DNA from: Bacillota bacterium
GTDB lineage: Bacteria; Bacillota; Sulfobacillia; Sulfobacillales; Sulfobacillaceae
Length of the DNA stretch: 32,692 nucleotides
Direction of reading: 5' to 3'
Assembly (NCBI GenBank): GCA_021784595.1
Contig: JAJYHT010000093.1
Coordinates: 1-32,692 of the forward strand
Shown here: one piece after another, positions 10,732 to 27,708 of the stretch
Position numbering within the stretch: the first letter of the stretch is position 1
Layout of the letters: every line of letters starts with the position of its first letter
Notes under the pieces: model-generated
What the model was told of the DNA's origin: nothing
Databases searched by the model: none
The model's input: the letters and a program-made list of their open reading frames with translations, nothing else
Position numbers and translations under genes: made by a program

Positions 10732-11442
10732 CTATCTTTCTAAGGCGCTAGCAGCTGAGTGATATACCAACTCCGCAGTTTTGCGAAGGTGGCTTTCTAA
10801 TAATTTGGAGGCCTTGTCAGCATCTTTTCGGTGGCAGGCCTCCAAAACATCGGCATGCTCATTGCGCCGATCATGGATCGATCCCCGATGTTCCAGTGAA
10901 AGCCGGCGATAACGTTCTGAGTTGTCCCACAAGGTACTTATCATTCCCAAGAGCCATGGTGATGCTCCGACTTGATACATCCCAAAGTGAAAGCGTTTAT
11001 GCAAAACCCGGCCCGTCGCATCTTCATGTTGATCGTAGGCAAATTCATACTGCTCAAGAATCTTTAAGAGCCGACTGTAATCGTCTTCGGTGAAGAGCGC
11101 GGCAGACCGACGGATAGCACGCGTTTCCATAAGAATACGAGCCGCATAGGTATCATCAAGATCGGCCAGCGACAAAGGCGACACGCGCGCCTCCTTTTGA
11201 GGCGGCTGCTCCACCAAGCCCTCATATTGAAGCCTTTTTAAAGCTTCCCGGACGGGCATGATGCTGATATCTAGTTTCTTGGCCAAGTCGTTTAATAACA
11301 GCGTTTCGCCGGGGGCTAGGGCACCGCTGATGATAGCCTCCCTGAGTTGTTGCGTCGCATGTTCCGCCAGTGTGGGCGGCTTCCGTGATTCGCCTTGCCA
11401 TTGGAGATTATTGTATGAGCCTGGTGCTGTCTCTTCGACCAC
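10732..11442 (-). CDS. GntR-family (FCD) transcriptional regulator
   Basis: A regulator of about 236 residues. The GntR winged helix spans LAEHATQQLREAIISGALAPGE to DISIMPVREALKRLQYEGLVE, and an FCD effector domain follows, with helices from about residue 95 and likely metal or acid-binding His residues in HKRFHFGMYQ and HADVLEACHRKDADKA. I choose the GTG at 11442, with AGGAAGAAGG 9 bases upstream, over a GTG at 11493 with a poor ribosome site. It is the second gene of the operon, directly after the permease, so it probably controls the whole cluster and itself. FCD regulators usually bind an organic acid related to the pathway. A candidate operator lies over the promoter at 13011-13023. Confidence 0.9.
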   Translation of the reverse strand: MVEETAPGSYNNLQWQGESRKPPTLAEHATQQLREAIISGALAPGETLLLNDLAKKLDISIMPVREALKRLQYEGLVEQPPQKEARVSPLSLADLDDTYAARILMETRAIRRSAALFTEDDYSRLLKILEQYEFAYDQHEDATGRVLHKRFHFGMYQVGASPWLLGMISTLWDNSERYRRLSLEHRGSIHDRRNEHADVLEACHRKDADKASKLLESHLRKTAELVYHSAASALER

Positions 11443-11511
11443 TATACATAACCTTCTTCCTAAGCTGTGTTTGGCGTCTACGGAAAGCCGCACCCACCAA
11501 CATAAGAGATC

Positions 11512-12948
11512 TTAACCCTCAACGTCGCTCATAGCCAACTTGGCGTCAACGATAGTGGTCATCGATCCCGGTTTAAAGACATATTGGCGTAAAACCGGAT
11601 AGGCAACCAGCACGACCACCAATGCGGTTAAGAATCCCAGGGAGAATACGTGCGCGTTCTCCAGTAGCACTGCCACTACTACACTAATGATGATGCTTGT
11701 AACACCTGCCACATTGACTGCTTCCACTTTAGTGTGGTCAGCACACTCTTTTTTGCGAACAATGTAGTAATCGGCAATCATCACACCCGCAAAGGCTGTA
11801 GTAATCACTCCTAAGATATTGAGCCAACTGGCAATGAGCCCCAATATGCCTCCAGAAATCATCAACAGCGCGATGATATTGCCCAGAATCACCATCGCCA
11901 AGCGGCCCGGCCGCCAGTGGCCCAAGGCATCAAAGAAGTTTGTCAAGGCGAGAGAGCCCGAGTACGTGTTCAAGACTTGTGCCTTAACTTGGGCTGCATA
12001 CATCAGAATGAATCCAAAGACAGCCGAGAGCACGATGAAGAAAGCACCCGTATTGTTCGCGGCCAGTGAGTTGGCGGTGGCCAGTGCGGTACTGCTGGTA
12101 GCCATGTGATGCGCCAGTAAATAGTGAATGGCTGGCCCCATGCCGCCAAACACAATAATGGCTCCGGCAATCATCACCACAACGTCCATCATGAAGCTGC
12201 CTGCATACGCCATGATAATGACATCCCGTGGAGATTTTGCATACCGTGCGTAATCAGCATCTACCAAAGCGAGCGCCCCTGCCGAGCCGGCCAGTGTCAC
12301 GATGGCGGTGCTGACGCGCGCCCATAATCCTCCCAGACCCGGAATGAGGGATCCGTGTGTCATAATGCTAATAAAGGTAACCCCGGAGGCAAAACCTGAG
12401 CGGTAAAACATGTAGGCCAACAAGATCAAAAATGCGACCATCAGATAGGAGGAGACCTTCAAAATCAGATTAACCCCGAACGTCGTAAGCAGAATCCATC
12501 CTATTGTTAGGATTCCAAAGATCACAATCCGCAACGTCAGTGTGTTGTTCCATCCAAAAGCAAATAACGTCCCGTAGTATAACAAGGAGTTCTCAAGTGC
12601 CAGAAATCCCAGAATCATAAATCCGAAGATTGCGGACGCAATCACAGAACCTCGCGCACCGAATCCGTAAAAGCGAGACGTTACGGTGCTAGACAGCCCC
12701 TCCTGGCGGCTTATCATGGCCACCATCCAACCTAGAGTACCGCCAAAAAAGGCCACCAGAACATCAGCAAAAATAGCCCAGCCCATACCAGCCACAGCGG
12801 CCACGTAGCTCCCAATGAGCAATTGCACCAATGTGGTGACGATACCCATGGTCATCCAAGATAAGGCCCAACCAGATTTTCTATGATGATCAGGGACCCT
12901 ATTGAGCGCGTGATCTTCAATTTGTTCCGCCAACGAGTTCGTTGACAT
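11512..12948 (-). CDS. NCS1-family permease (purine-cytosine permease-like)
   Basis: A protein of about 478 residues with roughly twelve hydrophobic membrane segments, and an N-terminus (EDHALNRVPDHHRKSGW) typical of the NCS1 nucleobase:cation symporters. Typical segments include MGWAIFADVLVAFFGGTLGW and, near the C-terminal half, ITTAFAGVMIADYYIVRKKE. NCS1 carriers import cytosine, purines, hydantoin, allantoin, uracil or thiamin. As the first gene after the promoter it most likely imports the operon's substrate, which hints at a small N-heterocycle. I start at the ATG at 12948 because AGGAG lies 8 bases upstream; an upstream in-frame start would add eight residues. Confidence 0.9.
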   Translation of the reverse strand: MSTNSLAEQIEDHALNRVPDHHRKSGWALSWMTMGIVTTLVQLLIGSYVAAVAGMGWAIFADVLVAFFGGTLGWMVAMISRQEGLSSTVTSRFYGFGARGSVIASAIFGFMILGFLALENSLLYYGTLFAFGWNNTLTLRIVIFGILTIGWILLTTFGVNLILKVSSYLMVAFLILLAYMFYRSGFASGVTFISIMTHGSLIPGLGGLWARVSTAIVTLAGSAGALALVDADYARYAKSPRDVIIMAYAGSFMMDVVVMIAGAIIVFGGMGPAIHYLLAHHMATSSTALATANSLAANNTGAFFIVLSAVFGFILMYAAQVKAQVLNTYSGSLALTNFFDALGHWRPGRLAMVILGNIIALLMISGGILGLIASWLNILGVITTAFAGVMIADYYIVRKKECADHTKVEAVNVAGVTSIIISVVVAVLLENAHVFSLGFLTALVVVLVAYPVLRQYVFKPGSMTTIVDAKLAMSDVEG

Positions 12949-13010
12949 AGGGGTGTCTCCTCTCTTTCTCAATTATCGCACGACAGACATAGTTCATACT
13001 TAATACGCTA

Positions 13011-13191: not shown

Positions 13192-14164
13192 AAAACTCAG
13201 TGGATGGCAGAGCAAGGCATCCCCGAGGCCATCGCTTGCGATGGCAAGACCGTGCGCGGCTCATGTTCGGCGAGCACGAAACCGCGTCACCTGGTCTCCG
13301 CGGTCATTCATGGCACGACCCGGATGATTGCCCACACGGGGGTGGACGAGAAATCCAATGAAATGCCCGCCATTCATACGTTGTTAGATTCGCTCGACGT
13401 AATCGGCACATCGATTACTGCCGATGCCATGCATACGCAACGGCACCTATATGGTCGAGAAGAAACAGGCGGACTACCTCTTGATTGCAAAGGCAATCAG
13501 CCGACGTTGGAACAGGCCATTGGGACCCTCAGCTCCGAGGATTTTTCTCCCTCCGGTCGAAACGTGGGACAAAGGACACGGCCGTCTGAAACATCGTCGC
13601 CTCCGAGCCAGTACCGCCCTCAATAACTTCAAGATTTGGCTCTTGGCCACTTTTAGTGCAGCATAATCATGAAAAATTCCCCACCTAGATGGAGGGAACT
13701 TTTAAGAGCTCTTTAGAGTCAGGATAATCTTCGAAACCCTCAATGGCAAGAAATATTAGGGGACTCTTCCGGGGTAAATCGACCTGCACCAAAAGTGGCC
13801 AAGAGCCAAAATTTTCCTCATGTCGCGCAAGTGTTTTCTTGGAGCGCACGACCGCCATCCTCAAAACCGGTGAAGTCAAGCACGAAACGGCGTTCGGGCC
13901 GTGCAACCGTAGTCCCGCTGAACTGCCACCACAAGCCCTATTGGACGCAGTGCGTTTACATTGGACCATTGGATCCGAGATGTGAACTGGAGGAAAGATC
14001 AGTCACGGGTTCGGACCGGGGCGGCATCCGAGGTCCTCGCGAGCTTTCGCAATTTGGTGTTAAGTTGGCTCGGTCTGAAAAAGAAGCCTCGCATTGCCAA
14101 CCAGCTTCGCCAGTTCGCTTGGGACCGTAACGCGGCGGTCGCCCTGGTCACGGAACCCGTGTAG
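13192..14164 (+). pseudogene. ISAs1-family transposase, degraded and interrupted
   Basis: The plus strand carries pieces of an ISAs1-type (H-repeat-associated) DDE transposase in shifting frames. TQWMAEQGIPEAIACDGKTV (from about 13192) and HLVSAVIHGTTRMIAHT, VDEKSNEMPAIHTLLDSLD are in one frame. VEKKQADYLLIAKA follows in another, then KGNQPTLEQAIGTLSSED in the first, then ETWDKGHGRLKHRRLRASTA in the second. After a 170 bp insertion the protein resumes as LERTTAILKTGEVKHETAFG and ends with IRDVNWRKDQSRVRTG to AVALVTEPV at 14164. At least four frame changes are needed and the N-terminal third is missing, so it is inactive. It marks the left side of the island. Confidence 0.8.
13638..13807. mobile_element. 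MITE-like 170 bp insertion with 24 bp terminal inverted repeats
   Basis: The ends 13638-13661 and 13784-13807 are inverted repeats of 24 bases with one mismatch, starting GGCTCTTGGCCACTTTT. The element splits the ISAs1 transposase coding sequence just after ALNNF and before FPHVAQVF. Flanking 8-mers (CAAGATTT and AAAATTTT) are only partly alike, so any target duplication has decayed. GGCTCTT-type ends are reminiscent of ISL3-family elements. No coding capacity is evident inside, so it would have needed a transposase in trans. Confidence 0.6.
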
Positions 14165-14434
14165 CCCCAATGGACTACTCGCCATAGGCCCATACACCAA
14201 TTCAGCAACCGGGGCCTTGACATGCCACCCATAGAGCGATTCCCGCCACCGTCACCGTGCTGTCAAGACCGGCCTTACGGTGGTACGAAAGCCATGTTAT
14301 TAGCGTAATTATCGCAGTTATACTTTGTCGAAGACCTGAGAATTAGCCAAAGCAAAATTGTAGAACAGCCAGTGATCGATTACACTAAGAGATGAAGTTC
14401 TCTGTCAACGGTGTGCTAATAAGGGGGATATACA
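14165..14434. promoter_or_regulatory. Intergenic region upstream of the DprA-like gene, with weak promoter candidates
   Basis: No gene is seen in these 270 bases. Two plus-strand promoter-like pairs occur before the DprA-like gene: TTATTA, 16 bases, TATACT; and closer to the gene TTGTAG, 17 bases, TACACT. Neither has a good -35. The stretch close to the gene is visibly richer in A+T than the decayed IS next to it. Confidence 0.3.
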
Positions 14435-15361
14435 ATGGGGAACGTGAGTCAGGAGCGTGCCATTCGATATTTCACCCTGCTATCGTTAATGGGTAACACG
14501 CGTCAGTCGCGAGATCTCATTGATTGTCGTGAGGAGCATAAAAATTTTGTTCAAACAGGTATGATCAGCGATTTGCTGATCAAGGCAATAGGGTCGGATC
14601 ACACGCTGCGGTCCACGCTCACCAAAGTTATATCGGCTTTCAAACAGCTACAACATTGCTATGTTGTAGAATATGGATCGGCAGAATATCCACCTAAATT
14701 AGCGCAGATCCATAACTCTCCGCGATTCTTGTTTTTGCAGGGGGACGTTAGTCTTTTGACCAAACCGATTGTTTCCATTGTTGGAACCCGCAATCCTAGC
14801 GATCTTGGACGTTGGCGGGCAGGCAAACTTGCGGCTTTACTGAGTCGCCGTGGGGTCATCGTCGCATCCGGTTTGGCCAAGGGGATAGATGCCGCGGCGC
14901 ACCATGGTACAATTTTGGCGCAAGGTAAGACGGTTGCGGTTTTAGGCACACCTTTAAACCAAGTGTATCCTAAGGAACATGTTGCATTACAACACCAAAT
15001 AGCCATCGAGGGCTTATTAGTATCACAATTTGCACCTTCGATGGCCGTCAATCGTTATAATTTTCCCCAGCGTAATGCGACGATGAGTGGTATTAGTTTA
15101 GCTACCGTCGTGATTGAGGCTGGCGAGACGAGCGGCGCTTTAATCCAAGCTGATTATGCTATCAAGCAAGGCCGCATTGTCTTTATTCCGCAAAGTGCGG
15201 TTGATAACGGCAATCTGCAATGGCCCAAGAAATTCTTGTCACGGTCTCGGAATGCGTATAAATTTAGTACGATAGAAGAGGTTGAAGAGGTATTAGGAGA
15301 AGCTTTAGAGTATTTTAATCCGCTATCATCATCGGCTATTGTCAAACAGGTCGGCGAATAG
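14435..15361 (+). CDS. DprA/Smf-like Rossmann-fold protein (accessory paralogue)
   Basis: A 308-residue protein with the DprA/Smf core: VSIVGTRNPSDLG (113-125), VIVASGLAKGIDAAAHHGTI (141-160), AVLGTPLNQVYPKEH (168-182), NFPQRNATMSGIS (209-221) and VVIEAGETSGALIQADYAIKQGR (225-247). Chromosomal DprA binds single-stranded DNA and loads RecA during transformation; the fold belongs to the SLOG superfamily, which also serves in nucleotide-based conflict systems. The C-terminal winged helix of full DprA is not evident. It begins with AAGGGGG 8 bases before the ATG. The partner gene starts 5 bases after its stop, and there are no recombination neighbours; with decayed transposons on both sides, an acquired paralogue is more likely than the housekeeping copy. 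Confidence 0.85.
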   Translation: MGNVSQERAIRYFTLLSLMGNTRQSRDLIDCREEHKNFVQTGMISDLLIKAIGSDHTLRSTLTKVISAFKQLQHCYVVEYGSAEYPPKLAQIHNSPRFLFLQGDVSLLTKPIVSIVGTRNPSDLGRWRAGKLAALLSRRGVIVASGLAKGIDAAAHHGTILAQGKTVAVLGTPLNQVYPKEHVALQHQIAIEGLLVSQFAPSMAVNRYNFPQRNATMSGISLATVVIEAGETSGALIQADYAIKQGRIVFIPQSAVDNGNLQWPKKFLSRSRNAYKFSTIEEVEEVLGEALEYFNPLSSSAIVKQVGE

Positions 15362-15366
15362 CGACA

Positions 15367-16566
15367 ATGATTTTTAACCCGACAGTCCTATTTATCAATG
15401 TGTCGGATCCCACGCGAATTCCCGATAACCTTGCAGCACAATGCTGTCCGACAGTCCAGTGGGTTGGTTATTTTGGTGAAGTTTTAGGGCGTCGCGGGGC
15501 TTCTGTTTCTACAGACCGTATTCCTTTAAACCTAGAGCACCCCTTTCCATTAGCGCAAGCCATCAGTGAATTTCTTATGCAAAAACACGAGGTGCCAGGG
15601 CATGCGCTTCTTATTACAGATAAAGACAAGGATGTTATCGATGCGGGCCTGTGCCATGTTCGGGTTGTATTCGTAGGCACCTCTTACACCCAAGATGACT
15701 TGCCTGACGCATGGTGCTCTACCATGCAGGCATTGACCACATGGCAGGCCCATCAATTTTTGGGTGAGTTGAGATCTGGGGATCTTGATTCGACGGGTGG
15801 TTTATTAGTATTAGGGCTTCACCCGTCGAATTATGATGCGGCGGCTACTTTATGGGGAACCGGTCGGTATTTTGCTAAGAACGATCCGCGCTCGGAAGTG
15901 CATTTGTTTACGAAACGGCTTTTATCGCTGAAAAATTGGCAACAAGGGCCGGTAGACAATGCCTTAATTCGGATTATGAGGGCGAGTGTAGCGATCATGG
16001 AACACGATACGTCACATTTCACGATGATGACTTCAATTCCTCCTAAGCGTGGTTCTCCAGATCGTTTGGGCGCACTTCTGCGACAATCTTTTCCAGATGA
16101 TAAGCGGGTCAACCCGGCGTTAATTCGTATAGCCAAACCGATAGAAAAACAATCACGACTGGGAAGAACGGCGCGTAGGGATAACGTTAAAGACGCATAC
16201 GTCCCTACCTCAGCTTCGTTGGCAGATCACAATATTTTGGTGGTGGATGACGTCGTTACTTCGGGGGCTACTCTCTCTGAAGTGGCGATCCAATTGGCAC
16301 AACGGGGTGCGTCTGTGGCCTGTTTGGCATTAGGCGTGGACCAACACCTTGTCCCTGATAGTAAATTGCAATTGCCCTGCTTATGTGGTACTTGTGACGG
16401 GCACATGATAGTCAGACTTAGTAGAACGACCTTTAGGCCTTTTTGGGGTTGCACAAATTGGCATCAAGGATGTCGTGAAACCTTAGACTATGTGTCGGGC
16501 CTGAATGCATACTACCAGTTACAACCGCATTTCAGGATTATGAAGGATTGGGACCTACCGTTTTGA
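15367..16566 (+). CDS. Phosphoribosyltransferase with C-terminal topoisomerase-type zinc ribbon (ComF-like partner of DprA)
   Basis: A 399-residue protein. The C-terminal half holds a type I phosphoribosyltransferase with the PRPP loop ILVVDDVVTSGATL (290-303). It ends in a zinc ribbon, CLCGTCDGHMIVR then RPFWGCTNWHQGCRET, with Cys338, 340, 343, 362 and 369, of the kind found at the C-terminus of DNA topoisomerase I. The N-terminal 130 residues are unassigned; ITDKDKDVIDAGLCHVRVVF (83-102) faintly recalls a HAD-like motif, which is speculative. ComF, a competence protein, also joins a zinc finger to a PRTase but in the reverse order. The gene follows the DprA-like gene by 5 bases, so the two probably form one unit. 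A weak ribosome site suggests coupled translation. Confidence 0.82.
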   Translation: MIFNPTVLFINVSDPTRIPDNLAAQCCPTVQWVGYFGEVLGRRGASVSTDRIPLNLEHPFPLAQAISEFLMQKHEVPGHALLITDKDKDVIDAGLCHVRVVFVGTSYTQDDLPDAWCSTMQALTTWQAHQFLGELRSGDLDSTGGLLVLGLHPSNYDAAATLWGTGRYFAKNDPRSEVHLFTKRLLSLKNWQQGPVDNALIRIMRASVAIMEHDTSHFTMMTSIPPKRGSPDRLGALLRQSFPDDKRVNPALIRIAKPIEKQSRLGRTARRDNVKDAYVPTSASLADHNILVVDDVVTSGATLSEVAIQLAQRGASVACLALGVDQHLVPDSKLQLPCLCGTCDGHMIVRLSRTTFRPFWGCTNWHQGCRETLDYVSGLNAYYQLQPHFRIMKDWDLPF

Positions 16567-16923
16567 AATCCCATATATCCTCAATGACCGTGATGATCCA
16601 ATTATGTCGTGCAACTAACAATCCGCGCCCTCTCCACGGCTAGGCTTTCAGGAAAGGGCTGTCCCTATTTACATCACTTCATTGGACTTTAAGCCCCCTC
16701 ACTGGGCTCGGCTGATAGACCGCCATGGACCCAGCGCTGTTACCGGTCAATCTTAGTCGGGGTGACCCACACCACGTCCTGGTGCGCGTGAAGGCTATCA
16801 TTTGCATTGGGATCGCTAGGCGTACCGAGAAGGATCGTCGGTCTAATTTTCTCTTTTCTGCGCTAGTGCTGTTTCCCGACGCCGACAGGAGACCCCCCGT
16901 TCTAGATTGGAAGGTTTTCATGA
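16567..16923. other. Non-coding stretch after the PRTase gene
   Basis: I see no convincing gene here. Short open frames on both strands have no recognisable motif and no ribosome site. An AGCCC/GGGCT dyad around 16690-16710 lacks a T-run, so I do not call it a terminator. Confidence 0.4.
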
Positions 16924-17121
16924 TTATCGTCTAAATTAGGCTCTAATATCGGCGAATGGGCGGGAAGACGGCTGGCGTTGATTGGCTGGACCGTCGACCA
17001 ACGCTGCCGCTTACGCTTTGTGGCGAACAATACCCGGTTTCTCATTTTGCCCGATGCTAAAGCCAAGCATCGGGGTTCTCGGCTTGACGTTCTTCCGCCC
17101 GCCGATCCAGCGGCAAACTGA
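16924..17121 (+). pseudogene. DruA/DUF4338-like protein remnant
   Basis: An open frame without a start reads RRLALIGWTVDQRCRLRF and then VANNTRFLILPDAKAKH before diverging and stopping at 17121. The combination IGW..(E/D)QR...L..V.NN.RFLILP is the hallmark of DUF4338 proteins, which include DruA of the Druantia phage-defence system as well as stand-alone, transposon-like copies. Only about 35 residues match, and an 8-base perfect hairpin (CCCGATGC/GCATCGGG, 17050-17074) lies inside the 3' part. It is a decayed piece; no other Druantia gene is visible. Confidence 0.5.
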
Positions 17122-17240: not shown

Positions 17241-18407
17241 TTAAGAATCTGGCCGCGTATTAGCAATCCGCCCAGGGAACAATCGTTGATATTCAACCAA
17301 TCCGGCCAATACCTGATCCAGGTCAGCTTTATTGTTGTAATAGTGAAGACTAATGCGAATGGCTTTGCCACGCGGGCTGACGAAAATTCTACGCTGCTCT
17401 AGGAACTCGGCCAAATGATCTGCATTGTCCGTTAAAACAGCCACTTGGGGCCCTCGCTGCTGCGGATCGGTAGGCGAATATAGTGCCATATCCGCGTCGA
17501 CCAAGTTATCCTGCAAAATCTGAGCCAATTGCGAAACATGACTAAAGACCTCATCCGTGTTCGTTTCGTTTATCAGAGAAAGACCTGCAGAAGCCGCAAA
17601 AGCCGCGGGTATTGCCGGCGTTCCAGTTTGAAACCGGCGGGCATTTTCCGCATAATCCAGCACCCGTGGGGTAAACGCAAACGGCTCTTTGCGGCCGAAC
17701 CATCCCGTTAAAACGGGATCGATGGGTTGTTCCAATTCAGGGCGCACCCACAAAAAAGCAATGCCTGGAGCTCCTAAAAGATATTTCAATGTACCCGCCA
17801 CCAAATAATCACAATCTAGATCCTCAACATCGATGGGAACGACTCCCGCGCCTTGATATGCATCGACAATAACGCGAGCGCCGTGTCGATGAGCCTTTTC
17901 GGCGATTTCCCTCACTGATAGCCGTAAACCATTCGCATAGGACACCAATGGCGTCGAAACCAACGCCACCTCGTCGTTAATTTGGTCGAGATATTGTTCA
18001 GTTTGGACCAACCCGCGCTTGTCCGAAATGAACTGCACCGAGGCTCCTCGGGATTCTGCTGCCAACCAGACATGCGCAACCGAAGGAAATTCCAGATCGT
18101 TGGTCAAGATAACCTTCTTAGATCCAATAAATGATTGGGCGGAAACAACTTGAAAAGCGCCTTCGGATGCGCACGATACCGTCGCGACATCTTTTGGATC
18201 AGCATGAATCAGTTGGGCAAACGCTAGACGTGCACGGTCTACTTCACTCATCCAATATTGCCATGGAGCCCCATGAATACGCCAACTCGTCATAAACTCA
18301 CTCATAGCCACCATGACTCGATCGGATAACGCCCCCTCGCTACAACTGCACAAGTGAACGCTGTCGGAAAAAACGGGAAAGTGATCACGAAACTCTGTTG
18401 CTTGCAC
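17241..18407 (-). CDS. PLP-dependent aminotransferase class V (cysteine desulfurase/kynureninase-like)
   Basis: A protein of about 389 residues with fold type I PLP features: CASEGAFQVVSAQ near the phosphate-binding loop, VIVDAYQGAGVVPIDVEDL with the PLP-contacting Asp, and the Schiff-base lysine in DYLVAGTLKYLLGAPG. The C-terminal FVSPRGKAIRISLHYYN is typical of the class V small domain. Members act as cysteine desulfurases, kynureninases, serine-pyruvate aminotransferases or racemase-like enzymes; no specific role can be assigned. The GTG start at 18407 is chosen because AGGGGG lies 7 bases upstream; a longer frame would begin inside the promoter. It diverges from the XRE-cupin gene, and a truncated permease follows it. 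Confidence 0.85.
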   Translation of the reverse strand: MQATEFRDHFPVFSDSVHLCSCSEGALSDRVMVAMSEFMTSWRIHGAPWQYWMSEVDRARLAFAQLIHADPKDVATVSCASEGAFQVVSAQSFIGSKKVILTNDLEFPSVAHVWLAAESRGASVQFISDKRGLVQTEQYLDQINDEVALVSTPLVSYANGLRLSVREIAEKAHRHGARVIVDAYQGAGVVPIDVEDLDCDYLVAGTLKYLLGAPGIAFLWVRPELEQPIDPVLTGWFGRKEPFAFTPRVLDYAENARRFQTGTPAIPAAFAASAGLSLINETNTDEVFSHVSQLAQILQDNLVDADMALYSPTDPQQRGPQVAVLTDNADHLAEFLEQRRIFVSPRGKAIRISLHYYNNKADLDQVLAGLVEYQRLFPGRIANTRPDS

Positions 18408-18444
18408 AAAACCGCCCCCTGTGACCAGGTGTAAAATTATTTTA

Positions 18445-18455
18445 GTAACACTAAC
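18445..18455. promoter_or_regulatory. Candidate operator motif GTAACACTAAC (copy 1)
   Basis: This 11-mer recurs with one change (GTAACAGTAAC) at 18923-18933, in front of the divergent XRE-cupin regulator. Shared motifs before a regulator and its divergent neighbour are typical operator sites. Only two copies exist, so chance cannot be excluded. Confidence 0.35.
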
Positions 18456-18459
18456 ACCG

Positions 18460-18488
18460 ACATTACGTAGTAAAACTGGTTTTGTCAA
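18460..18488 (-). promoter_or_regulatory. Putative promoter of the aminotransferase gene
   Basis: On the minus strand TTGACA (18483-18488), a 17-base spacer and TAATGT (18460-18465). The -35 is perfect, the -10 weak. It lies about 55 bases before the GTG start and upstream of the GTAACACTAAC motif, so a regulator bound there would sit at or just past the transcription start. Confidence 0.45.
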
Positions 18489-18900
18489 CAGAGTGTTGAG
18501 AGTGGCTCAAACATAGAATGCCTGCACTGACACCTTTGGGCTTGGTGCAGCAAGCATTTTTTCCTGCGAAAAGGTGTGCTGTCAAGGATTTTTCAATAAC
18601 CCCGAGACCCTTCGCGCAAGCTTACAAATCATGGACAATTGGCCGCATTATGTAGAACGGTTTGTCTTTATAGAATCCAGTCAACTCCATTCCCCTCCCG
18701 TCAGCATGCCCAAGGGTAAAGACGGTCTTAGTGCTTTGGCACCGGCAACGCTCGATGGGTCCAAGCCTCACCGCATGATAGCCATGGCACCGCATCTACC
18801 CCTTTGCCGGATAACTGGTCACCCCATCATGCTAATCCCATCCTATAAGTCCTCTACTGATAGCGTGCGATAATCACATTGATCGACTAAGGCGCGCGTT
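18489..18900. other. Spacer between divergent genes with a hairpin plus T-run and an unassigned frame
   Basis: A stem of CTGCAC/GTGCAG extended by AATGC/GCATT (18517-18558, with a 3-base bulge) is followed by a run of six T on the plus strand, so it looks like an intrinsic terminator although no plus-strand gene ends here. A 99-codon plus frame at 18574-18873 has a GTG start, no good ribosome site and no recognisable motif; I do not call it a gene. The region may be decayed DNA that separated an originally compact divergent promoter. Confidence 0.35.
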
Positions 18901-18922
18901 TTGTACGAGAAAACGCTACAAT

Positions 18923-18933
18923 GTAACAGTAAC
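18923..18933. promoter_or_regulatory. Candidate operator motif GTAACAGTAAC (copy 2)
   Basis: Partner of the motif at 18445-18455, here 28 bases before the XRE-cupin ATG and directly after a -10-like TACAAT (18917-18922). No good -35 is seen. Autoregulation by the XRE-cupin protein is inferred. Confidence 0.35.
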
Positions 18934-18961
18934 TTCTGGAGAAAGCGGAGGAATTTAAGGC

Positions 18962-19498
18962 ATGTTGGGACCACGTTTGCGAGACTTGCGGCACTCTCGT
19001 CGATTAAGCTTAAAATCATTGGCAAAGGACGCAGGCATTTCAATTGCACTGCTCAGTCAAGTAGAACGGGAGCGCCTTGATCCCAGTTTGGATACCTTGC
19101 GCAAGTTAGCCAAAGCCCTAGACGTACCAATTTTCAGCTTGTTTCAAGATTCTCGTGACATGGCCGCAGCAGTGGTTCCAGCAAATCGTCGACTATCCAT
19201 CAGCGCGTCCCCCGATTCGGTCACCTATAGCCGTATCTCCCCTGGCTTTGGCCAGCTAGAAGTGCTCGAAGGAATTTTGCAACCTGGGGCTGCCTCCTCG
19301 CCCGAGTTGTGGGCGCACAACTCGGAAGAATGTGCGGTGGTTCTCCAAGGCGTCCTAACAGTAGAGTTCTCCGAGGAATCATTTACTTTAGAACGCGGCG
19401 ACAGTATATACTTCGACTCCCGGCGAGCCCATCGATATGTAAACCGTGCGGACCAACGCTGCAACTATATCGTAACCGTAACTCCGCCTAGTTTTTAA
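18962..19498 (+). CDS. XRE-family regulator with C-terminal cupin domain
   Basis: A 178-residue regulator. An XRE helix-turn-helix fills residues 4-58 (LRDLRHSRRLSLKSLAKDAG, then ISIALLSQVERERLDPSLDTL). A cupin effector domain covers about 85-178, with LWAHNSEECAVVLQGVLTVE, then LERGDSIYFDSRRAHRYVN. Such proteins (SutR/PuuR-like) sense small amino-acid or amine ligands. GGAGG lies 11 bases before the ATG. The divergent aminotransferase and its former permease are the likely targets, which would make this an amino-acid-related local regulator. The next gene downstream converges on it, with 78 bases between and no clear terminator. Confidence 0.9.
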   Translation: MLGPRLRDLRHSRRLSLKSLAKDAGISIALLSQVERERLDPSLDTLRKLAKALDVPIFSLFQDSRDMAAAVVPANRRLSISASPDSVTYSRISPGFGQLEVLEGILQPGAASSPELWAHNSEECAVVLQGVLTVEFSEESFTLERGDSIYFDSRRAHRYVNRADQRCNYIVTVTPPSF

Positions 19499-19576
19499 TA
19501 CAAACTAAGAAAACTGCCTCTGGAATCGTTGCCATACCGTATCAGAGAGCCCGTGAGTCGATTATCAACGCCCTTG

Positions 19577-20470
19577 TCACATGTTCAGGTTTGAAGCGGA
19601 TACAGTGGAGAGAAAATCCAACAACGGTGGATAGTAGTGTTCAGGATCGTCCCACATGGCCATATGGCTGCCTAGTGGGCAAATTACCGCCTGGGCGTCA
19701 GGCATCCTACGCGCCATATGCAACACATCGTCCGGATTCATGGTGTCATGACGACTTCCTATCAGCAGTGACGGAGTGGCAATCTTGTCTAAATCCGCCC
19801 AACGGTCCCAGTCTTTAAAGGTCCCCGTCACAAAAAACTCGTTCGGTCCTTGCATGGTTTCATAGACTTCGGGGTTTAAGTGCTCAAAACTTCTGACCAC
19901 AGCCATGGGCCATGGATCTAGCCGGCAAAGGTGTTCCTTGTACAACCCATCCATTATGGCCAGATAACGGGGATGCGTGTATTCCTGCGTCGTTTCATAA
20001 AACGCCATTTCGTCTTGGGCAGATTGGGGCAGACAGGAGCGCAAGAGGTTCAAATGTGTAACGTAAGACTGAATGCTGGCCACCATATTGGAGATAACCA
20101 GGCCTTTTAGATGCGGCCCATACTTTAGCGCATATTCTATGGCCAGCATGCCTCCCCAAGACTGTCCAAACAAGATCATCTGCTCGATGCCCAGCGCCTG
20201 TCTGACCTCATCCACTTCATCGCAAAAACGTTGCACGGTCCAGAGCGTTTTATCGTCCGGTTGATCGGAAAAATACGAGCCTAATTGGTCGTAGAAATAT
20301 AGCCGGAAACGATCCAAAGGAATGTGATCTTTTAAACACTCAAGATATTCATGATTGGCGCCGGGTCCTCCGTGCAGCAAAAGGATGGGCATCTCTCCCG
20401 TGCCTACTTGGCGCGTCCACACTCGATACCCATTTTGTAACTCGATGAGCTTTGAGCGTCCTTCCATCAT
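19577..20470 (-). CDS. Proline iminopeptidase-like alpha/beta hydrolase (S33 family)
   Basis: A 297-residue alpha/beta hydrolase. It carries the oxyanion motif HGGPG (33-37), the nucleophile elbow GQSWGG with Ser104, a likely acid Asp in LLIGSRHDTMNPD and the His in PLGSHMAMWDDPEHYY. The HGGPG plus GQSWGG pair is characteristic of the proline-specific peptidase subfamily, which releases N-terminal proline or hydrolyses amino-acid amides. The DQLGSYFSDQP segment stands where homologues usually have DQRGSGRS. Two consecutive ATGs make the start ambiguous by one codon, with GGCGGGG just upstream. It follows the smaller hydrolase by about 50 bases and may be co-transcribed with it and the sigma factor. 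Confidence 0.87.
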   Translation of the reverse strand: MMEGRSKLIELQNGYRVWTRQVGTGEMPILLLHGGPGANHEYLECLKDHIPLDRFRLYFYDQLGSYFSDQPDDKTLWTVQRFCDEVDEVRQALGIEQMILFGQSWGGMLAIEYALKYGPHLKGLVISNMVASIQSYVTHLNLLRSCLPQSAQDEMAFYETTQEYTHPRYLAIMDGLYKEHLCRLDPWPMAVVRSFEHLNPEVYETMQGPNEFFVTGTFKDWDRWADLDKIATPSLLIGSRHDTMNPDDVLHMARRMPDAQAVICPLGSHMAMWDDPEHYYPPLLDFLSTVSASNLNM

Positions 20471-20519
20471 TTCCCCGCCTGTCTCTACTGATTTGCCAAC
20501 TACCCAACTTCAACAGCCA

Positions 20520-21125
20520 TCAGTCCGTTGACACCACCGCCAAGAACTCCCCCACCACATTTTCCAACAGCTGCCGATCGGGACCATTCCATATGTTTTG
20601 CGCATGCCGACTGCCAGCAATTTCTCGCAAAACCTTCGGTTCTGGCGCCCACTCAAACACCGAAAGAGTCTGGTCACGCATCATTTCTTGAGCACTGACC
20701 ACAAAGAGCTTTGGGATCTCCCCCAGACTGGCCGCAACTCCGGCATCCACCATGACGGTGGACCAAGTCATTACGGCCTTAAACTGTTGAGGATCTCTTG
20801 CCACTGCTCGCAGCACCCCGCCGCCGCCGCGTGAGGCTCCCAATGGCACCACATCGTGGCCTCTCTGCGTTAATTCGCCGGCGACTGCCAGAACATCCCA
20901 TTCGATGGCATCCGCGCCCAAACTTCCGATGGTGGATTTTCCATATCCCCGAAAATTGGGGATGGCTACGGTATAGCCCTGGCCTGCTAATGCATCGCCA
21001 TATTCAACAAAGCTATCACGGTCAAACGCTTTCCCATGGCACAAGATTACGGCGGTTTTCCCTTGCGCCGAATAATACGTTTCGATCACGGCGCCATCCA
21101 TGGTGGTAATCACTAAATCTTCCAT
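20520..21125 (-). CDS. Small alpha/beta hydrolase
   Basis: A 201-residue alpha/beta hydrolase of the dienelactone-hydrolase/BAAT-like kind: VILCHGKAFDRDSF (oxyanion region), VAIPNFRGYGKS, and the nucleophile elbow GASRGGGG. The His near SRHAQNIWNG is a candidate catalytic residue. The start at 21125 is chosen because GGAGG lies 7 bases upstream; an upstream in-frame start would add ten residues without a ribosome site. Its substrate is unknown. It follows the sigma factor gene by 58 bases on the same strand. Confidence 0.8.
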   Translation of the reverse strand: MEDLVITTMDGAVIETYYSAQGKTAVILCHGKAFDRDSFVEYGDALAGQGYTVAIPNFRGYGKSTIGSLGADAIEWDVLAVAGELTQRGHDVVPLGASRGGGGVLRAVARDPQQFKAVMTWSTVMVDAGVAASLGEIPKLFVVSAQEMMRDQTLSVFEWAPEPKVLREIAGSRHAQNIWNGPDRQLLENVVGEFLAVVSTD

Positions 21126-21183
21126 TAACACACCTCCAGGTCCCCATATTACCACGACCTAATAGGGTTCTGGACGATCAAGG

Positions 21184-21717
21184 CTATAGCGCTAAAAAAT
21201 CTTGTTGCAACCGCCTTCGGGCACGGAACAACCGCATCTTTACTGCAGCTGGGGTAACTTTTTCCCGGATTCCGATGTGAATTAGACTTTCGCCGCCCAC
21301 GTAATGCTGCCATAGCCATTGTCGTTCGCGGTAGGGCAGTATTTTTTCCAAAGTAAGTTGCCACTCAATGGTCAGCATTTTCTCATCCCACGAGCCCACA
21401 TATTTTGTGACGATATCCATCGCGACCATATCCTCAGGATGCGCCGCAGCTCGCCGATAGGCACTCACCAAATAGTTGTGGCAAATCACTCGCAATAAGG
21501 GAGCAGGTGGAGCTTCTCCATGGACCAAAGACCATTGCCATCCCCGACCTAAACTTTCTTGGACCACGTCTTCAATTTCCAGGCCTTGGGGCATCGACCG
21601 ATATCTTAGCCATTGTTCCAGCATGCGCCGCCCTTTTGGTACCCATTCTTCGGCCAGGCGAGCCAATTCAGGGCTGGCCGCCGGATCCGTCGCGTCTAAC
21701 AGTGCGGTACACCTCAT
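21184..21717 (-). CDS. ECF-like sigma-70 family sigma factor
   Basis: A 177-residue protein with two sigma regions. Region 2 includes QGLEIEDVVQESLGRGWQWS and the LRVICHNYLVSAYRRA helix; region 4 ends in LIHIGIREKVTPAAVKMRLF, then RARRRLQQDF, a clear sigma-4 helix-turn-helix. No region 1 or 3 is present, as in extracytoplasmic-function sigma factors. The start at 21717 has AAGGAG 7 bases upstream; a longer open frame upstream has no coding character. No anti-sigma gene is adjacent: the two following genes are alpha/beta hydrolases, which may be its regulon or only neighbours. Confidence 0.82.
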   Translation of the reverse strand: MRCTALLDATDPAASPELARLAEEWVPKGRRMLEQWLRYRSMPQGLEIEDVVQESLGRGWQWSLVHGEAPPAPLLRVICHNYLVSAYRRAAAHPEDMVAMDIVTKYVGSWDEKMLTIEWQLTLEKILPYRERQWLWQHYVGGESLIHIGIREKVTPAAVKMRLFRARRRLQQDFLAL

Positions 21718-22171
21718 GGCAATTCTCCTTTTTCTATTGCAAGAGATTTCCATTTTAGAGTACCGAAGAATGTTGGAGTTATCCTGAGAAAGGGCTGAAT
21801 AAATCCTTAACATCAGATAAATCCAGCCACAACTTTTAGATCCCAGCATCTCAATGAACAATTTGCATTCAATCAACGCAACTTTCGCGGGTAAATACAC
21901 CGGGAGTTTCCACTTCCTATGCGGGTTTGGGGATTTTCCCTGTGAGCTTGACTCATGGATGCGGTTACGCAGAGGTTGGAAGATTGCGCAAAAGTGCCCG
22001 ATAGAGGGCATCGACTGGATGGGTTGGGCGTTAAGCCCAGTGTTTCTTGCAATGCGGCCTGGCAGCCACCATGATCTGGGGAACCATTGCCCAGGTTACA
22101 TCGGACAGTTTATCGACCATGGGAAAAGGGATAGCGGCGACGGTCCGCAAATCGGCGCCAGATAGCGCTTC
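21718..22171. other. Spacer between the sigma gene and the IS4 remnant
   Basis: No gene could be supported. Open frames on both strands lack motifs and ribosome sites. The 22030-22170 part may be decayed sequence from the end of the IS4-type element, but no conserved motif is left. No clear sigma promoter was found upstream of 21717. Confidence 0.4.
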
Positions 22172-22293
22172 TTAGGCTAAAAAGAGGTACCGCCAGCAGA
22201 CCAACGTGGTGTGGGCGGTCAGAGCGTCATACGACCGGCTTTGAAACTCGGAGGCCAACCCAAGAAAGGACTTGCTGACCTTGAAGAAGGTTT
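22172..22293 (-). pseudogene. IS4-family transposase remnant, 3' exon
   Basis: The minus strand reads TFFKVSKSFLGLASEFQSRS, then YDALTAHTTLVCWRYLFLA and a stop. This is the segment just after the catalytic Glu of IS4-type transposases: FFK..K..L.LA.E.Q.RSYDAL.AHTT. It continues the reading of the fragment at 24120-24305. The two are separated by the group II intron. Confidence 0.75.
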
Positions 22294-22332
22294 GTCGGGT
22301 AAGAACTGGCGCGGTATCGTCGCGACCCGTCT

Positions 22333-22367
22333 CCAGCCCGCTCGCGAGGTTTTCCCTCAAGCCGCTC
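22333..22367 (-). ncRNA. Group II intron domain V-like hairpin
   Basis: On the minus strand, downstream of the reverse-transcriptase stop, the sequence folds as GAGC, GG, CUU, GAGG, a GAAAA loop, CCUC, a 2-base GC bulge, GAG, CGG, GCU. An AGC triad at the 5' base and a 2-base bulge opposite are domain V features. The lower stem is imperfect, so the RNA may no longer be active. Confidence 0.5.
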
Positions 22368-22391
22368 ACCCCATAATCTTCGTCAAAAGGG

Positions 22392-23632
22392 TTATGCGAC
22401 CCATTGAGGTGGCGGACACTTTCCTGGATATCCGTCGGCGCTTTTGAGGAGGTGGACTTGCCACTCCCAGTAGAGCCCCAATACGCCGTACAGATCTGCG
22501 TTACTCCATCTCCGCCATCCGATGCTACGCTTGTGTCTTCGCTTCCTTCGGCTCAGCAGCGTGCGGATTTTCATCTCGGTATAGCCACAGATTTCCCCGA
22601 ATGCGCGACTGGAGTTGCCGACCCGGAAGTAGTTCACCCATCGGGTCAATAGGGCATTGACTTGGTTCACGATGTCTTTTGCCGGTTTGCCTCCCCCATT
22701 TTGGATCACTTCCCGAATTCGCGCTTTAATGGCCTTCCGGGCCTTCTTCTTCGGGGTCATCAGGATAAAATATCCGGTTCTGCCGCGGTTCTAGACTCGT
22801 CTGACATCAAAGCCGCGAAAGGAGAAGGAGTCTCCTTTTAAGACGTCGACCATCCGAGTTTTCTTCCGGTTCAGTTCCACCCCCAAAGGTTCCACGTGTT
22901 CCTGCAGTCGCTGTAATGCCAACTCGGCCCACCCGCGTTAGCTGGAGTGTCCACTGACGGTGATGACCATATCATCGGCGAACCGATGATAGTTCACGGA
23001 TTCGTATGGGCCTTCCGCTGTTTTGCGGCGGATGGCCTCGAACGCCCAGTCCACCTCATTCAGGTAGATATTCGCAGCGAGTGGAGAGAACGGACCCTTG
23101 GGGAAACGCCGACTTTGCCCGCCACCTTAATCAGCTGTTTGACTACTTGGGGGATCTTGAACCCGTTTTGCAATTTTCTCCAGCAATCCGTGATGCCGTA
23201 TCCTATCGAAGAAGCGGGACAAATCCACGTCAATTACGGTCGGCATCCGTCGCAGGATACTGCGACGCAAAGATGGTTTCCAGTATCAGTTTCAACGCGC
23301 CTTATGCCACCCGATCCGGAATACTGAGAATTAGTGGGGTTTTCATTTGCCCGTTGGCCTTCGTAATGTCCTTTGCGATTGGGTTGTGGCTGGCAGGTTC
23401 CGGCCTGGAGCTCTGCGCGAATGCTTTCCAGGAACTCTCTGACGCCCGCTTGCTCCACATCCGCGAAACTTTGCCCGTCGATGCCTGGGGCTCCGCCATT
23501 TTTCTTCGCCTCGTAGAGGGTCGTCATATGGGTGATGTGGGTGAATAGTCCCCAGAATCGGTGCGTAGGTACAGACTTCGCCTTTTGATATATCCGCCGT
23601 CTTAGCTCCTGCAAGTTGTTGTGTTTTTGTCA
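22392..23632 (-). pseudogene. Group II intron reverse transcriptase/maturase, multiply frameshifted
   Basis: The N-terminal piece (23614 down to about 23300) reads RRRIYQKAKSVPTHRFWGLF and NGGAPGIDGQSFADVEQAGV, the standard start of bacterial intron RTs. The catalytic box is FADD (22971-22982), the usual YADD with Phe, in NYHRFADDMVITVSG. The C-terminal piece (22760 to 22392) reads KKKARKAIKARIREVIQNGG, then LLTRWVNYFRVGNSSRAFGE and RRKRRHKRSIGWRRW, the maturase/HNH-less C-terminus. The parts lie in different frames, so several frameshifts have destroyed the protein. Confidence 0.88.
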
Positions 23633-24119
23633 TGGCACCCTGGCCTCCTTCGATCGTACGGAATGTTTACAGGTTCGGACCCTTTCCTGCACGCGTATCC
23701 ACGGTACTCCGGTCCGTTCCGCCACCTGCCGCACTCATTTCCGGTTATAGAGGCAGCCTCCTCGATGAGGTTTCTTCATCGGGTGTCGAGGGCTTCTCCC
23801 GTTTCCACAGCATCTTTCCCTCCATGTCGCTGCTGATACCCCGCTGGGAAGAACTGCCTTTCAGACTTGTTTCGGTCAGTCCTTGTTGCTTTCGCGCGTT
23901 ATCGACCGTCTCAGCCACCAGAATTGCGTGTAACGAGGCTACATCTGCGTTCACTAGGCGTTACAACCTGGAGTTTTGCCCGTGCTCCTAATGAGCACGC
24001 TGTCAGAGGGCTCCACCGTCTCGTTTTACTTCACGGTGCCTCTCAGGCTACGGGAGAGTAGTCTTTTGCTCCCGGTCGGACTGGCACCGGCTAGATGTTG
24101 TGTCCTTAGCTGGACACGC

Positions 24120-24305
24120 CAATGTCCCACCGCTTGCCATAAAGCCGTATGGCTTCGTCGTCGACCAAGCTCACGTCGGTGCATAAAAGCGCGAGTCATT
24201 GGCGCGACTGGCCGCGCCGATTTCGAATGAATAGCAATTTTACGGGCAACGGCCCCGGAGGGGTCGGAAGTTGAACAACGCTAGAGTCTTTCACATCATG
24301 ACTGT
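24120..24305 (-). pseudogene. IS4-family transposase remnant, 5' exon
   Basis: The minus strand reads VKDSSVVQLPTPPGPLPVKL, then LFIRNRRGQSRQ, a stop, and LALLCTDVSLVDDEAIRLYG then KRWDI. This matches the IS4-family block before the catalytic glutamate (VKLVFVRNR...WLAILSTD..L...EIIR.YGKRWDIE). The stop (TGA) replaces an expected TGG codon. Further upstream, coding similarity cannot be followed. Together with 22172-22293 it gives Y-(2)-R-(3)-E-(6)-K. Confidence 0.72.
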
Positions 24306-24795
24306 CCCGCGGAGACCGCTTCATGACGTGTCAGCGATGGAATCTGGGGACAGCTCGCCGACGCGAACCAGCTCAGCACAGAGCGCCAGTTCCACAACAG
24401 GTTTTTGAAATACGACATCTTTGCCTAAGGAAATTTCTTACGCATTTCGTGTGTCGAGCCGGCGCCAAAAGTTCCGTCTCCCATACTCATGGGGCGTTTG
24501 ATCAGAACCTGCAATGAAGACCTAACACTGAGTTGAACAGTCGGTGCAGATAGGTATGCCGGGAGCCCTGAAATCCCTCGCCACCACCGCCCCATTGGAA
24601 GTGCCCCACAGTACATGTTTTTCTAACCTCCCCCCAAAGCGGGTGGCCAATGGTTAGACCACATGTAATGGTTCGGTCCATCAAGAGCCCTGGACGTAGA
24701 CGTTTAAAAACAAGTGTAGGGGGATGAGATCATTCGGCAAAAAGGGGAAGATTCGATAAAAAAGCAATTCTACTAAATAGTGCAGGAGATCCATT
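24306..24795. other. Spacer between the IS4 remnant and the TldD operon
   Basis: No gene is supported. Part of it may be decayed IS4-element DNA. An A+T-rich stretch near 24740-24780 precedes the short ORF and could hold the operon promoter, but I found no convincing -35/-10 pair. Confidence 0.4.
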
Positions 24796-24870
24796 ATGGG
24801 CGGAGAATCTCATGTCGATACCCAGTGTATAAAAATGCAGAACTTTAAACCAAGGGTATCCACAGAATAA
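24796..24870 (+). CDS. Short ORF of 24 codons upstream of tldD (leader or precursor peptide candidate)
   Basis: ATG at 24796 is preceded by GCAGGAG with a 7-base spacer, and the frame ends with TAA at 24870, 21 bases before the TldD-like start. The peptide begins MGGESHVDTQCIKM and ends PRVSTE, with one Cys, one His and several polar residues. TldD/TldE-type proteases trim modified peptides such as microcin B17 and other RiPPs, and some have their substrate encoded just upstream. It could equally be a translation-coupling or attenuation leader, or a chance frame. Only position and the ribosome site support it. Confidence 0.4.
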   Translation: MGGESHVDTQCIKMQNFKPRVSTE

Positions 24871-24891
24871 CTGCAGGAGGAGGCCCCAATC

Positions 24892-26298
24892 ATGTCTATC
24901 AGACATCCAGTTGATGACGGCATCCTTGCAACGCTAACCGCACTATCGGCGCGAGAGGAAGTAGAGGAAGTCGAGATTCGGCTTGAGTTCAATGAGACAA
25001 CCCAGATTGATACCTTGAATGACCGTGTGCTTCACCAGACACATGTAGTGGACGTAGGCGGCAACGTGAGGGTCTTTGTCAACGGAGTTGTCGGGTTCGT
25101 GCACTTTGACGGTTGGAACGACATTGGCCGTCATGTGGACGAAGCGATCTTACTAGCAAAAATGAGTTATGGTCAGACAAGCCCATTCCGTCTCGGAGAT
25201 GTGCGTCCTGTGCGCATGATTCAACGGCTACAAACCAAAGAAGATCCCTTGACAGTTTCCTTGGAGAATAAAGTAGCGCTGCTACTTCATTATTCTGAGG
25301 TGGCCCGAAGTGCACATCCCTTAATAAAGTCGGTTACTGGCCGGTATTTTGATCGATATCGCCATCTATGGTTTGTCAACAGCCATGGAACGGGAATAGA
25401 ACAGGAAAAACTCGATTTAGGCGGAAATATTTTGGTAGTGTCGCGTGACCGAAACGGGACTGCTCAACGCGGAGTTTCTTTTGGGTCCTCTAATGACTTT
25501 GGAGTGATCCGAGATTTGGACGATGAAGTTCACGAGGCGGCTATGACTGCGGTAGCATTGTTGGAGGCTCCGGAGATTGTTGGAGGCGAATACACGGTAG
25601 TGGTGGACCCACATCTCGCCGGGGTGTTTGCTCACGAAGCCTTTGGTCATCTCAGCGAAGCTGACGGACAAGTGGGAGACTCTGGACTCATGGCCGAAAT
25701 GCATATTGGACGACATTTCGGGCCAGCCAATCTCCACATCTATGATACTGGCCAAGACTTGGGAAGCCGGGGATATCTCCCGGTGGACGATGAGGGCGTC
25801 GCAGCTTCTGATATAGATCTTATCAAAGATGGTGTGTTAGTGGGGCGCTTGCACTCTCGAGAAACGGCATCGCGCATGGGAGAATTTCCGACTGGTAACG
25901 CCCGTGCCCTGCATTATCGCTTCCCGCCGATTGTCCGGATGCGCAACACCGTGATTGCTCCAGGAGAAACAGCTTTTGAGGATTTGTTCCAAGGGATTGA
26001 AAAAGGTATCTACGCCAAAGGTAGCCACGGCGGACAAACCAATGGGGAACTTTTCACTTTTTTGGCGGCCGAAGCCTATCTCATCGAAAATGGACAGGTG
26101 ACCCGTCCATTGCGAAACGCCGTGTTAACCGGCAATGTGTTCAGCACGCTAGAACAGATTACGGCAGTAGGTAGCGATTTTACGCGGTATGAAGGCGGCG
26201 GAGGATGTGGAAAAGCCGGACAGATGCCATTGCCAGTAAGCCATCATGCGCCATCCCTACGTATTGAACGATGTTTAGTGGGGGGACGTAACCAATGA
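24892..26298 (+). CDS. tldD: TldD-like metalloprotease subunit
   Basis: A 468-residue TldD/PmbA-family protein. It carries the metal motif HEAFGH (248-253), with the following E acting as base in the HExxxH arrangement, and the C-terminal GGGGCGKAGQ, where Cys439 corresponds to the third zinc ligand. TldD and TldE form a heterodimeric protease that digests unfolded or modified peptides; in E. coli it removes the microcin B17 leader and degrades CcdA. AGGAGG precedes the ATG, and the stop overlaps the next start (ATGA). It heads a run of peptide-related genes, so a role in peptide processing or utilisation is inferred. Confidence 0.9.
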   Translation: MSIRHPVDDGILATLTALSAREEVEEVEIRLEFNETTQIDTLNDRVLHQTHVVDVGGNVRVFVNGVVGFVHFDGWNDIGRHVDEAILLAKMSYGQTSPFRLGDVRPVRMIQRLQTKEDPLTVSLENKVALLLHYSEVARSAHPLIKSVTGRYFDRYRHLWFVNSHGTGIEQEKLDLGGNILVVSRDRNGTAQRGVSFGSSNDFGVIRDLDDEVHEAAMTAVALLEAPEIVGGEYTVVVDPHLAGVFAHEAFGHLSEADGQVGDSGLMAEMHIGRHFGPANLHIYDTGQDLGSRGYLPVDDEGVAASDIDLIKDGVLVGRLHSRETASRMGEFPTGNARALHYRFPPIVRMRNTVIAPGETAFEDLFQGIEKGIYAKGSHGGQTNGELFTFLAAEAYLIENGQVTRPLRNAVLTGNVFSTLEQITAVGSDFTRYEGGGGCGKAGQMPLPVSHHAPSLRIERCLVGGRNQ

Positions 26299-27635
26299 CA
26301 AACTTTACCGCAGAACCGGGGTCACTCGGCAAACTTAGTTGGGACAAAGGACAGAGTGGCGATGGGGCTGATATTCAACGCCAAGTGTGGTCGGTCGAAG
26401 TCAAAGGTGGGCAAGCGCCCATGGTGCGCCACGGTTCCGAGCAAGTACGAGCCGTGAGAATGGTACAGGATGGGAGGTTGGGATTTGCCGCTTCTCGTAC
26501 CAAATCATGGCTAGAACTTAAGCAGGAAGCGCTCCGATCTTGTGCCAACGGACCGGAGACTAAACTGGACGAACCAGTCATTGGCTCCACGGCAGGCTCG
26601 AATATCAAATCTCGGTGGACTTCGGCCATGATTCCACAAATGAACGGCGCCGCCCTCACCCTTTACCATACCTTGCAAAACCTGTCTAGTGATTTCCGCC
26701 CTTCAGTCACGATATCCTTTGTGCAGGTTACCACCCAGTTAACGACCTCTAATGGAGGTCAGGCTGTGTGGACACAGGGGTATTGGGACGTGTCAGCAGG
26801 GGGCCGTCGGGTTAATGGCACCGATTTTCACGGGATTGCTGAGACACGGTTAAAAGCTGATGATATACCCGATATCAATCAATTAGGTCTGGATCTCGCA
26901 CAACGATTTGGCTGGGGCCAAGACCTTCAGACTATTGATAGCGGTAAGTATCCTATCGTGTTTTTGCCGCCAGTAACGATGGGGCTGTTAACTTCGGTTT
27001 TGGCGCGATTGTCCGGTCCATCCCTGATATCTGGCAACTCACCTTGGGAAGACCAACGTGAACAACAGGTTCTATCCCCTTTATTAAGCATCTTTAGTGA
27101 CGCCACCATACCAGATGGCCCTCGAACAAGTCCATTTGACGATGAGGGTACATCGACCGGAAAGTGGGCATTGATTGAGAACGGGATTTTGAAAAATTTT
27201 GTTCTGAATCGAGATGCCGCACGGCACCTCGGACTTGAACCCCAAGGAATGGGATACCGCCCCGCACCTACTGCAATGCCCCTGTCGTTGCCAGCTAATT
27301 TGGTGATCCAGCCCAGTGCCTCATCATTTAGCGAACTTCTTAACCGTTTTCCCCGCATGTTGGTTTTAAATGGGTGGATTGGAGGGCGGCCGACTAACCC
27401 ACTGCGGGGAGACATTGCTGGTAATGCCAGTGACTTGTATTTTTCCGAACAAGGGGTCATTACTGGTCGCGTGAAAAACGCCGTAATTAGTGTCAACGTG
27501 TTTGACGCGCTATCCCATCAGTTAGTGGACGTGGGCCAAGATGCCAGTTGGGTGGCCCAAGGCATGATGCAGGCAGCTCCCGGTAAACTCCCACCATTGT
27601 TGATTGACCATGTGGACGTTACCGTTAGGCAATAG
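26295..27635 (+). CDS. TldE/PmbA-like protease subunit
   Basis: A 446-residue partner of the TldD-like protein. It has the family architecture and the closing block (WIGGRPTNPLRGDIAGNASD, VITGRVKNAVISVNVFDAL) but no HExxxH motif, as expected for the non-metal TldE/PmbA subunit. ATG overlaps the TldD stop by 4 bases, so production is coupled. TldE-type subunits help form the substrate channel. The gene ends 73 bases before the lipoprotein gene, and no terminator is seen, so it is likely in the same operon. Confidence 0.85.
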   Translation: MTNFTAEPGSLGKLSWDKGQSGDGADIQRQVWSVEVKGGQAPMVRHGSEQVRAVRMVQDGRLGFAASRTKSWLELKQEALRSCANGPETKLDEPVIGSTAGSNIKSRWTSAMIPQMNGAALTLYHTLQNLSSDFRPSVTISFVQVTTQLTTSNGGQAVWTQGYWDVSAGGRRVNGTDFHGIAETRLKADDIPDINQLGLDLAQRFGWGQDLQTIDSGKYPIVFLPPVTMGLLTSVLARLSGPSLISGNSPWEDQREQQVLSPLLSIFSDATIPDGPRTSPFDDEGTSTGKWALIENGILKNFVLNRDAARHLGLEPQGMGYRPAPTAMPLSLPANLVIQPSASSFSELLNRFPRMLVLNGWIGGRPTNPLRGDIAGNASDLYFSEQGVITGRVKNAVISVNVFDALSHQLVDVGQDASWVAQGMMQAAPGKLPPLLIDHVDVTVRQ

Positions 27636-27708
27636 CGAAGGAACTTTTTTAGGAGACAGTAAAAATTGGCGTTCCCTAAGATACTTAACTAGACGAGGAG
27701 GACTAATC

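Follow-up and report, generated by a model that had tools for sequence, protein, structure and literature searches.

Results

The window, by which we mean the whole stretch of 32,692 nucleotides that was analysed, carries two intact open reading frames on the forward strand, spaced by only 5 bases, as the original prediction had described. The first (14435..15361) encodes a DprA/SLOG protein of 308 amino acids, ShosA-like and a putative antitoxin or sensor, and the second (15367..16566) encodes a ShosT-like PRTase of 399 amino acids, a putative toxin. Direct reading of the sequence revealed a strong ribosome-binding site, AAGGGGGA, ahead of the DprA gene (14421..14428, forward strand), and none as clear ahead of the toxin gene. 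The pair recurs in two relatives, G001 and G025, whose toxins are 68% and 61% identical to that of the window. Comparison with these two gave dN/dS values of about 0.11 for the DprA gene and of 0.20-0.24 for the PRTase gene, at synonymous sites near saturation, and both genes are under purifying selection. Given the recurrence and the low dN/dS, the adjacency of the two genes is not due to chance.

The DNA homology common to the three pairs spans 14350..16566 of the window, at 73-75% identity, and beyond these limits no DNA match to the compared loci of G001 and G025 was found, which is the pattern expected for a moving cassette. The original prediction placed the pair between wrecked transposons; upstream this holds, with a degraded DDE transposase fragment at 13204-13626 (PF01609, E 0.026), but downstream of the pair no recognisable transposase was found. 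An imperfect inverted repeat of 34 nt (76%) flanks the pair, with its left arm at 13663..13696 and its right arm at 16894..16927. A pattern made from it occurs with fewer than 3 mismatches at these two sites of the genome only; we could tie the repeat to no element, and it may reflect chance or an element end. The checked neighbours (10732-12972 and 17241-32180) are metabolic and regulatory genes, among them a purine-type permease, an FCD regulator, a class V aminotransferase, a TldD/PmbA protein and an Asp/Glu racemase, and they form no defence island. This setting amid metabolic genes, with no other defence genes, counts against a role in defence.

The DprA protein belongs to a mostly mobile clade

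Residues 74-270 of the window DprA match PF02481 (207.6 bits, E 1.6e-61), and no winged-helix family was matched in the domain profile search, so that a DprA/SLOG protein lacking an obvious winged helix was correctly foreseen. PADLOC identifies it as ShosA (model PDLC03961, E 4.7e-71), and it scores below the cut-off of the housekeeping dprA family TIGR00732 (182.7 against 191.15 bits). In a tree built by a quick method, with support by SH-aLRT only, the window DprA falls in a clade of mostly PRTase-linked, mobile DprAs (support 97), which is nested in a larger, mostly phage DprA clade (support 98). It lies outside the housekeeping DprAs and apart from the reference ShosA group.

The PRTase carries an intact PRPP motif and a zinc ribbon

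The match of the putative toxin to the PRTase family PF00156 is barely above the cut-off (26.8 bits). Its PRPP-binding motif, ILVVDDVVTSGAT (16234..16272, forward strand, residues 290-302), is intact, and D294, D295, T298, G300 and T302 are invariant in alignment A1. Downstream of the motif lies a C4 zinc ribbon of the topoisomerase type (16378..16473, forward strand), formed by C338, C343, C362 and C369. In the window protein itself the ribbon matches PF01396 only below the threshold (E 0.2); the four cysteines are invariant in alignments A1 and A2, and several homologues give clearer matches (E 2e-12 to 4e-5), which together bear out the predicted fusion of a PRTase with a topoisomerase-type ribbon. 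As a side observation, the C-terminal DWDLPF of the toxin (16546-16563) resembles the DWDWP tail of P2-type ShosT, which is without a zinc ribbon.

PADLOC matched the toxin to PsyrT (E 7e-9) and to ShosT (E 1e-4), in both cases through the PRTase part only, which for PsyrT is its C-terminal PRTase. Domain and family profiles detected no helicase domain in the 399 amino acids, and the RecQ-PRTase (PsyrT) label was dropped for this reason. An AF2 model of the whole toxin has a mean pLDDT of 46 and is usable in the PRTase core alone. The solved structures closest to this core are those of ComF (7p0h), its top fold match with Z 10.8, and of ShosT (8zvc/8zvd), with a Foldseek value of 9e-5 against 8zvd and a VIA Z of 10.2 over 174 residues. 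The window PRTase scores 32.8 bits in the ComF family TIGR00201, below its cut-off of 233.55, a strict one that true ComFs in most control genomes miss too.

The toxin N-terminus is probably a degenerate HAD-like domain

Ahead of the PRTase lies an N-terminal domain (15367..15771, forward strand, about residues 1-135), which profile-profile comparison suggests is a degenerate HAD-like Rossmannoid domain lacking the DxD motif. An initial comparison of this kind gave an out-of-register alignment; with hhalign, the N-termini of the window clade matched the HAD-like N-termini of ShosT-type proteins with E 3e-5, in register at the region of HAD motif IV, against 0.083 for the best of 60 shuffles. 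The top PDB matches of the N-terminal profile were HADs (E 0.08). By plain HMM the link between the window N-terminus and HAD was not above shuffled controls. A model of the N-terminus by itself was weak (pLDDT 54), from an alignment that included ShosT N-termini and was thus open to bias; its Foldseek matches all had values above 0.001, with HADs prominent among the best matches and none significant, and in a second aligner HAD did no better than receiver and cobalamin-binding folds. Since neither the plain HMM nor the structure tests confirmed the assignment, we hold it as likely only: the window toxin probably begins with a HAD-like domain whose catalytic aspartates have been lost, as judged from sequence profiles.

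Such a domain has parallels among relatives. In P2-type ShosT the N-terminus is HAD-like and its DxD motif is degenerate, and the architecture of HAD-like domain, PRTase and Top1-type zinc ribbon, with a DprA gene adjacent, is found in the annotated ShosT of Pf phage PfAC02a and in ShosT-like proteins of rhizobial plasmids. These differ from the window toxin in that their HAD domain retains the DxD motif, and the PfAC02a pair has the toxin gene first. At another locus (L153:3169-4925) we observed a separate HAD-like ORF overlapping the start of a PRTase gene beside a DprA gene, so that the HAD part is perhaps encoded separately there, or the gene is frameshifted.

Related pairs are mobile and frequently phage-borne

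In G001 and G025 the pair lies between a serine recombinase and rlmH. In two other genomes, G026 and G030 (L189 and L195), a serine recombinase that is about 80% identical sits upstream of rlmH with a gap of only 0.7-0.8 kb, which leaves no space for the pair; this suggests that rlmH is an integration site with variable cargo. The window genome has its rlmH on a different contig from the pair. By eye, G025 also shows an ORF run resembling a Tn7-like tnsA-B-C-tniQ (L202:7409-15594), about 9 kb from its pair.

Further pairs of the same clade were found in G041, G049, G134 and G201, in the Geobacillus phage phiOH2 and in the viral contig L098, and the pair is sporadic among relatives. In a phylum search of 398 genomes, PRTase matches were mostly ComF-sized, and the full-length type was confined to the window genome, G134 and G201; the sole PRTase match of a genome-contig search (L026) proved to be an ordinary ComF. 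Every full-length PRTase of the window type that we found adjoins a DprA gene. Among 69 viral DprA-like loci, collected with the DprA profile of the window clade, 51 had a directly adjacent PRTase ORF (downstream in 49), and after de-duplication at 85% it was adjacent at 30 of 42. In the control list no housekeeping cellular DprA locus had an adjacent PRTase, and the 3 control pairs belong to this same family. Two further scans of viral contigs using other toxins yielded no finds. On NT-25 plasmid 4 (L170:3809-7581) two different DprA genes lie side by side and convergent, each with a partner gene, of which one is clearly a PRTase.

In three relatives the DprA gene is intact and the toxin gene is damaged, being frameshifted in G041, truncated in G057 (L019) and absent from G027. 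Decay of the toxin first fits a toxin that depends on its partner, on a sample of three cases only.

Carriage by phages could also point to a module for phage fitness, in which DprA would mediate the recombination of phage DNA while the PRTase would tune nucleotide supply, with no toxin involved. The pairs of phiOH2 and of the G049 prophage, which lie between replication or RusA-like genes and terminase, agree with this, as does the binding of ssDNA by DprA homologues (PMC9122126). We nevertheless regard it as unlikely, for purifying selection acts on the pair also at loci where no prophage was seen nearby, its distribution is patchy, and the characterised relatives are toxin-antitoxin or defence systems.

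A role in competence is very unlikely

The window DprA is the single PF02481 gene of its genome, and no comF was found there above the strict cut-off of TIGR00201. Together with the ComF-like fold of the PRTase, this could favour a pair equivalent to the DprA and ComF of competence, which belong to the same two superfamilies, and hence the DNA uptake that the original prediction offered as one option. Several observations speak against it. A search for comEC (PF03772) found it in 0 of the 36 genomes of the host's order, the window genome included, as opposed to 9 of 10 sampled genomes from other families of the class, so the host lineage appears to have lost this member of the competence set, and the pair indeed stands apart from competence genes; dprA itself is absent from most genomes of the host's family. 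Competence DprAs form the separate housekeeping clade, the pair misses the family cut-offs of both dprA and comF, and its relatives are phage-borne. The lack of comEC in the order, the distribution of dprA and the tree lead us to reject a competence role: DNA uptake by this pair is very unlikely, and its equivalence to DprA and ComF has hardly any probability left.

The original prediction also held that finding no other dprA and comF in the genome would undo a conflict role. The window DprA is the only one, and the PRTase is probably the only comF candidate, but where comEC has been lost and dprA is mostly missing, the status of sole dprA does not refute such a role.

Discussion

The best explanation that we can offer is that the pair is, quite probably, a mobile toxin-antitoxin or abortive-infection module of the DprA-PRTase kind represented by ShosTA, and that its toxin is a divergent one. 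Pairs of this kind, namely ShosTA, PsyrTA, RqlHI and the DprA-PRTase pair of the P2 hotspot, are already known as defence or toxin-antitoxin systems (PMC9122126, PMC4670107), and the proposal of a new system is therefore not supported. A role in nucleic-acid or nucleotide conflict, which the original prediction also put forward, is by contrast well supported, as far as homology to ShosTA and carriage by phages can indicate.

The closest likeness is to ShosTA of P2-like phage (PDB 8zvb-8zvd, 9vzo). The DprA of phage P2_4C9 matches the solved ShosA 9vzo (736 bits), its PRTase matches the solved ShosT 8zvb over all 424 residues (977 bits), and its DprA gene is followed by the PRTase gene after 1 base. 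The window pair has the identical order with the PRTase immediately after DprA, an intact PRPP motif, an N-terminal domain of about 140 residues ahead of the PRTase, and phage-borne relatives. It differs in that its toxin has the C4 zinc ribbon in addition and is only about 12-15% identical to ShosT-type proteins, and in that its DprA belongs to a clade separate from the reference ShosA. With PsyrTA and RqlHI it shares a PRTase toxin under the control of a DprA-like partner, whereas in their toxin the PRTase forms the C-terminal part of a RecQ-like helicase, and their gene order is the opposite.

The toxicity, neutralisation, trigger and phage defence that we would ascribe to the window pair are carried over from these relatives. 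RqlH has a genotoxic effect that depends on its PRPP pocket and that the DprA-like RqlI relieves (PMC4670107), and the DprA-PRTase pair of P2 confers protection from T7 and lambda (PMC9122126). A review describes ShosT as having PRTase and pyrophosphatase activity, perturbing purine metabolism and damaging DNA, and ShosA as binding DNA and likely promoting recombination (PMC12593503). By analogy, the window pair would most likely work as RqlHI, the P2 pair and ShosTA do. The PRTase toxin would use PRPP in a manner that disturbs nucleotide pools or nucleic acid, with damage to DNA and an arrest of growth as the result; the DprA-like partner would bind DNA and restrain the toxin; infection or damage would tip the balance between the two, so that the infected cell stops; and the zinc ribbon would presumably take the toxin to nucleic acid.

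A defence that works by signalling can also be envisaged, in which the PRTase would produce a messenger resembling a nucleotide, to be sensed by the SLOG/DprA protein. The SLOG domains of Thoeris sense nucleotide signals (PMC11204291), and PRTase and HAD proteins of the Ter system have been proposed as signal makers (PMC7824862). Against this, proteins of the DprA subfamily are known to bind DNA, and the characterised relatives are interacting toxins and antitoxins, or act in DNA repair, as described in PMC4670107 and in the review cited above (PMC12593503); we consider signalling quite improbable. Within the toxin-antitoxin reading, the remoteness of the toxin from ShosT and the separate clade of its DprA mean that function has possibly shifted. 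The window clade could be a biochemical branch of its own: its zinc ribbon would guide the PRTase to DNA or RNA, and the nucleic acid itself, not free bases, would be modified. To this proposal we give a low probability.

In kind the window pair is ordinary, and it is moderately interesting for its architecture and for its comEC-less host. With it, the ShosTA kind is now seen in a lineage that lacks comEC, in which DprA cannot serve standard transformation, and the survey of its relatives shows phage-borne DprA-PRTase pairs to be widespread. The zinc ribbon, together with the probable decayed HAD-like domain, makes this toxin a natural comparison for finding the true target of PRTase toxins.
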